Below are positions 61,750 to 64,000 of a stretch of 64,000 nucleotides of DNA, one piece after another. Below the pieces are notes generated by a model. The model saw only the letters and a list, made by a program, of their open reading frames with translations. It ran no database searches and was not told the origin of the DNA. A program made the position numbers and the translations under genes. The first letter of the stretch is position 1; the number at the start of each line of letters is the position of its first letter. Location: contig NZ_BPMV01000002.1 of the NCBI RefSeq assembly GCF_019656655.1, positions 186,001 through 250,000 of the forward strand, given 5' to 3'. Source of the DNA: Tsukamurella sp. TY48 (GTDB lineage Bacteria > Actinomycetota > Actinomycetes > Mycobacteriales > Mycobacteriaceae).

Positions 61750-61896
61750 TCGCGGGCGGGCCGCGGCTCGCCTCAGACGGAGCCCGCCTCCCCGAGCGCC
61801 GCGTGCGCTCCCCACGTCCACGGCACTAGGGACCGCCCGGGACGACACCGGTTGGAGTTTCGTCACGGTAGTTCGCGTACGCCCTCGGTGACGACG

Positions 61897-61902
61897 TAGA
61901 CT
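61897..61902 (+). promoter_or_regulatory. metH promoter -10 box
   Basis: TAGACT (TANNNT) predicts a transcript start 7 nt downstream at 61909, exactly where the riboswitch-like structure begins. No clear -35 is seen. Confidence 0.55.
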
Positions 61903-61908
61903 TTTCTG

Positions 61909-61975
61909 GTCGAGAGGCGTTGCAACGGGACCGGTCCCCCGGTATCCGCCACGCTCGGCGGAGTTAAGGACGCCT
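61909..61975 (+). promoter_or_regulatory. Probable S-adenosylhomocysteine (SAH) riboswitch
   Basis: The RNA after the predicted transcript start fits the SAH-riboswitch layout. P1 pairs AGGCGT (61915-61920) with ACGCCT (61970-61975); the conserved TGCAAC follows P1 at 61921-61926; a hairpin ACCGG/CCGGT closes a TCCC loop (61930-61943); and GTCGAG (61909-61914) can pair with CTCGGC (61954-61959) as the family's pseudoknot, including one G-U. CCACGCTCG (61949-61957) resembles the conserved CCAGGCTCG and TTAAGG the strand before P1. SAH riboswitches turn on genes for SAH removal and methionine recycling, so metH is a fitting target. No covariance search was run. Confidence 0.72.
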
Positions 61976-61996
61976 TCCGCGATGGAAGGAACGTAC

Positions 61997-64000
<2,004 letters not shown>

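Follow-up and report, generated by a model that had tools for sequence, protein, structure and literature searches.

Among the described riboswitches that bind SAH, the class collected in Rfam as RF01057 has ahcY and metF as its core targets, with metH as a further target in Comamonadaceae, according to the accessible part of PMC4239095. SAH riboswitches have also been identified in Mycobacteriaceae, as stated in 2013 in the accessible part of PMC3766115, and SAH is likewise bound by the SAM/SAH riboswitch RF01727 (PMC2864571, in the part accessible to us). The element described here lies in front of metH near the end of a 64,000-nucleotide stretch of the Tsukamurella sp. TY48 genome (positions 186,001 to 250,000 of contig NZ_BPMV01000002.1), which we call the window; since the Mycobacteriaceae were already mentioned in 2013, we treat it as one more example of an established class. 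Judged by homology and structure, the element is real and a genuine SAH riboswitch. With high confidence we regard it as a translational ON switch that controls metH; that it binds SAH, that it switches and in which direction it does so are inferred. A sequence-only reading of the window had proposed an SAH-riboswitch-like RNA beginning at the metH transcript start, and the comparative tests upheld the riboswitch class, the fold, the predicted transcript start and the target that it named.

The last gene of the window is metH, as judged from its Pfam domains (S-methyl_trans, 2.1e-93; Pterin_bind, 2.2e-62), and its open frame in the whole genome encodes 1278 amino acids. Its likely start is the GTG at 61997, behind GGAAGGA; the ATG at 61982 offered by the mechanical list of open reading frames was set aside, the GTG being preferred on reading of the sequence. 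The leader spans 61909-61996, and its part from 61909 to 61990, upstream of metH, holds the helices P1 and P2, a pseudoknot of six pairs and the core of the SAH riboswitch. Its parts, together with the promoter box and the gene, are as follows:

61897-61902, + strand: -10 box TAGACT, from the sequence; the transcript is predicted to start near 61908-61910, with the first bases of P1
61909-61914, + strand: 5' strand of P1, GUCGAG, from the sequence; pairs with 61954-61959
61915-61920, + strand: 5' strand of the P4 pseudoknot, AGGCGU; pairs with 61970-61975
61921-61926, + strand: conserved core UGCAAC, from the Rfam alignment
61926-61948, + strand: P2 hairpin; its conserved base pairs 61926-61928 with 61946-61948
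61930-61934 with 61939-61943, + strand: variable upper stem of P2, from folding
61949-61953, + strand: joining strand CCACG, from sequence comparison
61954-61959, + strand: 3' strand of P1, CUCGGC, the partner of 61909-61914
61966-61969, + strand: AAGG before the pseudoknot strand, present in 111/111 sites
61970-61975, + strand: 3' strand of the P4 pseudoknot, ACGCCU, the partner of 61915-61920
61973-61989, + strand: anti-Shine-Dalgarno hairpin CCUUCC-GCGAU-GGAAGG, from folding; its 5' arm overlaps the pseudoknot at 61973-61975
61984-61990, + strand: Shine-Dalgarno sequence GGAAGGA, from the sequence; 6 bases 5' of the GTG at 61997
61997-64000, + strand: metH, cobalamin-dependent methionine synthase, from Pfam domains; it leaves the window at its end

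The stretch 61949-61957 reads CCACGCTCG. In the window every pair of P1 and P2 is standard, and P4 has six of its six pairs. The elements on which the sequence-only reading relied, namely TAGACT (61897-61902), TGCAAC (61921-61926) and CCACGCUCG, are all present in the metH leader, and the P1 helix and pseudoknot that it proposed are both able to form, ACGCCU being complementary to AGGCGU. To these we add the anti-Shine-Dalgarno hairpin (61973-61989) and the likely GTG start at 61997.

Taken as a single sequence, the element is poorly recognized. The Rfam scan of the window returned no family at its threshold. In a permissive scan of 61750-62100, RF01057 matched 61906-61982 with 21.9 bits, short of its curated cut-off of 37 bits (E 0.051 with all families searched against the same 351 bases), and a weaker RF01057 match on the minus strand of this interval reached 14.2 bits. 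When RF01057 was searched against the whole genome the window site had an E of 0.148, with another site scoring 20.4 bits. Folded on its own, the sequence does not outperform its shuffled versions (z -0.36), and the minimum-energy structure of the window is neither of the two proposed switch states.

The picture changes with models built from relatives. When 20 chosen actinobacterial loci were scanned at Rfam's own threshold, 10 passed that of RF01057 and 10 did not, five of the latter being of Mycobacterium or Tsukamurella type. A model made from the ten accepted loci, L165 included (R2), gave the window element 57.0 bits in its own genome (E 1.5e-7). Although locus L165 is from a different family, the MetH tree puts its protein with Mycobacterium; omitting this locus left nine sites (R3), none of them from Tsukamurella or from the Mycobacterium-type genus (so called after the named Mycobacterium loci that group with it in the MetH tree), L098 belonging to their family but to a different genus. 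The result hardly changed, with 55.1 bits (E 1.4e-7) for the window element and 21.1 bits for the next-best site in the genome. R3 also gave 60.4 bits in the other Tsukamurella genome that carries this metH (G004), the best score in the remaining 14 species being 28.1, and it recovered 20/20 members of a Mycobacterium-type set (the window and 19 relatives) at 52.9-61.1 bits. A model made from 28 actinobacterial leaders, partly from Mycobacterium and with the window included (R1), recovered all 21 of the proteobacterial RF01057 loci given to it, a subset of 48, at E 4.6e-7 to 0.046. We therefore base the membership of the window element in the SAH riboswitch class on homology to Rfam-accepted members and not on the Rfam cut-off, which conceals the window copy and the mycobacterial copies tested. 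A significant covariance score, the lack of which would by the sequence-only reading count against the proposal, is missing for the single sequence with RF01057 (21.9 against 37 bits) and is obtained with the model from accepted relatives (55.1 bits). The view that GC-rich intergenic DNA resembles a riboswitch here by accident could appeal to the RF01057 E of 0.148 and to shuffles that fold equally well, but it is refuted by the comparative data, i.e. by the distance between 55.1 bits and 21.1 bits for the next site and by the linkage of the RNA with close MetH in 171/171 genomes (see below), and retains practically no credence.

At E up to 10, RF01057 found some match in 91 of 101 related genomes, and most of these matches are due to chance. 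The core motif was present in 14 of the 30 loci taken from this permissive search, and one candidate, L115 (23.2 bits, with CCAGG), was rejected as a chance match that overlaps a long open frame. In viral contigs 92 stretches fit the core pattern, and 80 listed loci were searched with R1; the best matches among these (25.0 bits at L370 1654-1712 and 23.0 bits at L347 2549-2680) are probably chance.

The conservation of the aptamer was assessed in 111 sites, comprising 88 of 92 hand-chosen loci from outside the Mycobacterium-type genus (mostly one or two genomes per genus) and 23 others (the window, L108, L111 and loci from the MetH search); three weak loci of about 27 bits (L230, L236, L238) and L193, which is without the CCACG anchor, were left out. 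The pseudoknot has six pairs in 107/111 sites and five in the other four, each of its pairs being standard in 109-111 sites, and its last pair is C-G in 78, U-A in 28 and U-G in three. The pairs of P1 are standard in 103-110 sites, the second one as C-G in 46, U-G in 35, U-A in 18 and G-C in three, and those at the base of P2 in 109-110. Relatives that lose both P1 and the pseudoknot, a pattern that would speak against the structure first proposed, were not seen among the 111 sites. In an alignment of 28 sequences, 99.3% of the cells are compatible with the pairs of the structure, compared with 28-48% for slid versions of it; only two of the 15 pairs show changes on both sides, so much of the signal in this alignment is conservation. 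In the Nocardioides metH copy of L023 (1395-1518) the segment between P1 and the pseudoknot is clearly longer, and this join therefore tolerates insertion.

The core is nearly invariant (UGCAA in 63, UGCGA in 42 and UGCAG in six of the 111 sites), while the P2 loop and the join between P1 and P4 vary freely. This pattern argues against a structured leader that acts only as a brake on translation, as a thermosensor or as a protein-binding site, with the likeness to SAH riboswitches inherited and the sensing lost. Such a leader would agree with the weak direct Rfam score and with the strong hairpin that covers the ribosome-binding site of the window (-9.1 kcal/mol), but it would have no need of a pseudoknot, which is complete in all but four sites, and we consider it very unlikely. 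The SAH-sensing interpretation is also in agreement with the placement of the promoter. A TANNNT box, counted when it starts 14-21 bases 5' of CGAG, is present in 20/20 Mycobacterium-type sites and in 67/91 other sites, compared with 4/551 control windows, which supports transcripts beginning at the first bases of P1, as predicted from the -10 box. The start at 61909 suggested for the window from its TAGACT box is supported by boxes at the corresponding distance in both sets.

In the expression platform the hiding arm and the ribosome-binding site change in step, if the counts are read with the reservation that related sites are not independent and the numbers are not probabilities: sites with a CCUU-type arm carry GAAGG in their ribosome-binding site in 31/37 cases, and sites with a CCUC-type arm carry GAAGG in 0/66 and GAGG in 66/66, with eight of the 111 sites belonging to neither type. 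In the six remaining CCUU sites this stretch reads GGGAGG or GAGGAGG, with which the arm could still pair through G-U. Because shuffled arms also pair in 83/111 sites on average, we relied on these matched types and on folding energies, which average -13.8 kcal/mol for the real segments and -8.7 for those with shuffled arms. The plain count of sites in which the Shine-Dalgarno sequence pairs with the pseudoknot strand (103/111, with a maximum of 90 for shuffled arms) is only modestly above that of the shuffles. Three bases are common to the pseudoknot and to the hairpin that hides the ribosome-binding site, and the hairpin varies along with the pseudoknot, which suggests a translational switch activated by SAH.

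We propose the following mechanism, by which metH would probably be switched on as the toxic by-product SAH builds up. Transcription would start at the first bases of P1. At low SAH, CCUUCC (61973-61978) would pair with GGAAGG (61984-61989) and hide the ribosome-binding site. At high SAH, the ligand would bind in the pocket formed by P1, P2 and the UGCAAC and CCACG joins, and would stabilize P4 (61915-61920 with 61970-61975); P4 would capture three bases of the hiding arm, leaving the ribosome-binding site free for MetH to be made. MetH would then remove homocysteine and so pull the hydrolysis of SAH forward. In one ahcY copy (L097, 1560-1595) the arm extends into a GC-rich, terminator-like hairpin followed by a T run, in place of an anti-Shine-Dalgarno hairpin, and from this copy the platform may also act on transcription.

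The distribution of the RNA follows the type of MetH. The same leader is present at all 17 of the closest MetH loci (L001-L017; 15 titled Mycobacterium, Mycolicibacterium or Mycolicibacter, and two MAGs, L009 and L015, titled otherwise) and at three of the next 19 (L018-L036). In two overlapping genome samples, R1 found matches in 123/397 genomes of the order (weakest E 2.4e-6) and in 75/394 genomes of the class (one of them weak, E 8.9e-4). Among 198 Mycobacterium-type genomes, a close MetH (E below 1e-100) was found in 171, and 171/171 of these have the RNA. In 18 genomes only a distant MetH was found (E about 1e-36 to 1e-41), and 17 of them have no RNA match at E 0.01, the remaining one having a weak match (E 0.0099). 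Four genomes with a partial MetH match have the RNA strongly in two cases, weakly in one and not at all in one, and a strong RNA match was found in one of the five genomes without a MetH match. These counts were made by eye from the lists of matches, two unlisted genomes without a match being identified by elimination. Thus, in Mycobacterium-type genomes, metH of this type is regularly preceded by a sensor usually described from proteobacteria. The comparison of metH leaders in related genomes, to which the sequence-only reading had pointed, finds the element with close MetH throughout the Mycobacterium-type genomes sampled. The argument from rarity made in the same reading, that such a riboswitch would be notable in this group, is weak, as copies in Mycobacteriaceae are mentioned in the accessible part of PMC3766115 and the element is regular with this MetH type.

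Outside the Mycobacterium-type genus, the genes downstream of the 92 hand-chosen sites are metH in 52 cases, ahcY in 22 (two of them with the match starting about 1 kb away), adenosine deaminase in four (L098, L217, L234, L239) and others in 14. The placement before a gene of SAH recycling, seen in the window with metH, thus recurs at 78 of the 92 sites. The products of these three genes remove homocysteine, SAH and adenosine, respectively, so that the choice of targets points to SAH as the natural ligand, and the adenosine deaminase genes are fitting targets for the removal of adenosine made from SAH. Six of the 14 others, each in a different actinobacterial genome, lie immediately before genes for proteins with MOSC_N and MOSC domains (L103, L206, L186, L244, L188, L208). 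This target recurs without an evident reason; it may point to a novel step in the handling of SAH, purines or thiols, and it gives an entry to a gene family whose function is unclear. Two sites precede class I methyltransferases (L184 and L242, both domain-checked) and two precede FMN_bind_2 proteins (L170 and L172, one domain-checked and the other near-identical by eye); of the rest, one is without an assigned gene and three are weak, chance-like matches near 27 bits.

With regard to the binding pocket, in the numbering of the solved SAH aptamer, 61922 and 61923 are presumably G15 and C16, 61951 is taken to be A29, and 61952 (C) and 61968 (G) are taken to be positions 30 and 46. G15, C16 and A29 surround the adenine of the ligand and C46 lies at its homocysteine tail (PMC7057144, accessible part). 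When the sites were parsed with neither base prescribed, positions 30/46 were C/G in 112/112 actinobacterial sites (the 111 and L193) and G/C in all 45 proteobacterial sites parsed from 48 loci (L260, L265 and L266 were unparsed, and L278 was re-read by eye as CCAGG and counted as G/C). Most of the actinobacterial sites were collected with R1, which favours C30/G46; C30/G46 is also found in the twelve best core-carrying loci from the RF01057 search (L097-L106, L108, L109), a model that favours the opposite. The exchange of G-C for C-G suggests that positions 30 and 46 pair, and it is directly checkable in the existing crystal structure; since the swap may be a single lineage-level event, this evidence is suggestive and does not amount to proof.

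By the assumed numbering, the window keeps the equivalents of G15, C16 and A29 and has G in place of C46 and C in place of G30. As positions 30 and 46 differ from those in all parsed proteobacterial members, the ligand specificity cannot be taken for granted, and the C30/G46 form of the same aptamer fold might prefer SAM or another adenosine-containing thioether. The consistency of the swap across the 112 sites and the fact that C46 of the solved aptamer is close to the tail of the ligand (PMC7057144, accessible part) would agree with such a preference, but the prevalence of metH, ahcY and adenosine deaminase among the targets, the retained contacts to the adenine and the resemblance of the swap to an ordinary pair exchange all speak against it, and we regard it as improbable. 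We retain SAH as the probable ligand, and an actinobacterial subtype of the SAH riboswitch is plausible.

The metH unit of the window appears foreign to its genus. Of 16 Tsukamurella genomes only two carry this MetH, with 96-100% identity across its first 228 residues, while the other 14 have a MetH of 42-45% identity; in both carriers the usual MetH of the genus gave no match. A quick maximum-likelihood tree built from 91 MetH rows places both carriers inside the Mycobacterium group, with SH-aLRT values of 100 for the carrier pair and 92 for the enclosing group of 31 rows (no bootstrap). The MetH proteins of L015, L165 and L237, which come from other actinobacterial groups, are also found inside the Mycobacterium group, each with the riboswitch, and other transfers are therefore likely. 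By eye, the similarity to Mycobacterium sets in shortly before the -10 box, and the metH loci of the 14 other species (with 1.5 kb flanks) match the window within metH only or nowhere. Two of the 16 Tsukamurella species thus probably received promoter, riboswitch and metH from Mycobacterium in one piece, as a region corresponding to 61880-64000 of the window and its homologous counterpart in G004. A search with TIGR01371 did not find metE in either carrier genome; across the 16 Tsukamurella genomes this model matched in nine, over its cut-off in seven. MetH is thus probably the only methionine synthase of the window genome, and the switch would set the output of that sole enzyme. A full shut-off would then be costly, which we count against the switch reading.

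If these observations are combined, they would outline a distinct actinobacterial subtype of the SAH riboswitch in which the 30-46 contact at the side of the pocket is flipped from G-C to C-G, a wider regulon that includes adenosine deaminase and a MOSC-domain family representing a new enzyme of SAH recycling or detoxification, and a cassette of promoter, switch and metH that moves between genera. We offer this joint scenario tentatively, as possible rather than probable. The actinobacterial breadth, the swap at positions 30 and 46 and the MOSC targets are apparently undescribed in the open literature searched, and a description of the mycobacterial metH element was not found in our literature search, outside of which most subscription papers lie.

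In comparison with the known systems, the cobalamin riboswitches of mycobacteria also control a methionine synthase gene (metE); in the window, the cobalamin riboswitch had no match at threshold. The SAM/SAH riboswitch RF01727 is described, in the accessible parts of PMC2864571 and PMC4239095, only from Rhodobacterales before metK, and it had no threshold match in the window and none at E up to 10 in 61750-62100. The SAH riboswitches mentioned for Mycobacteriaceae in PMC3766115 belong to the same class and the same bacterial group and are probably the same element, and the accessible part of that paper names no target gene, structure or mechanism for them. Finally, the proteobacterial members of RF01057, which precede ahcY, metF and metH, have P1, P2, P4, a UGCRRC-type core and the targets metH and ahcY in common with the actinobacterial sites, but they carry G30/C46 where the actinobacterial sites carry C30/G46.
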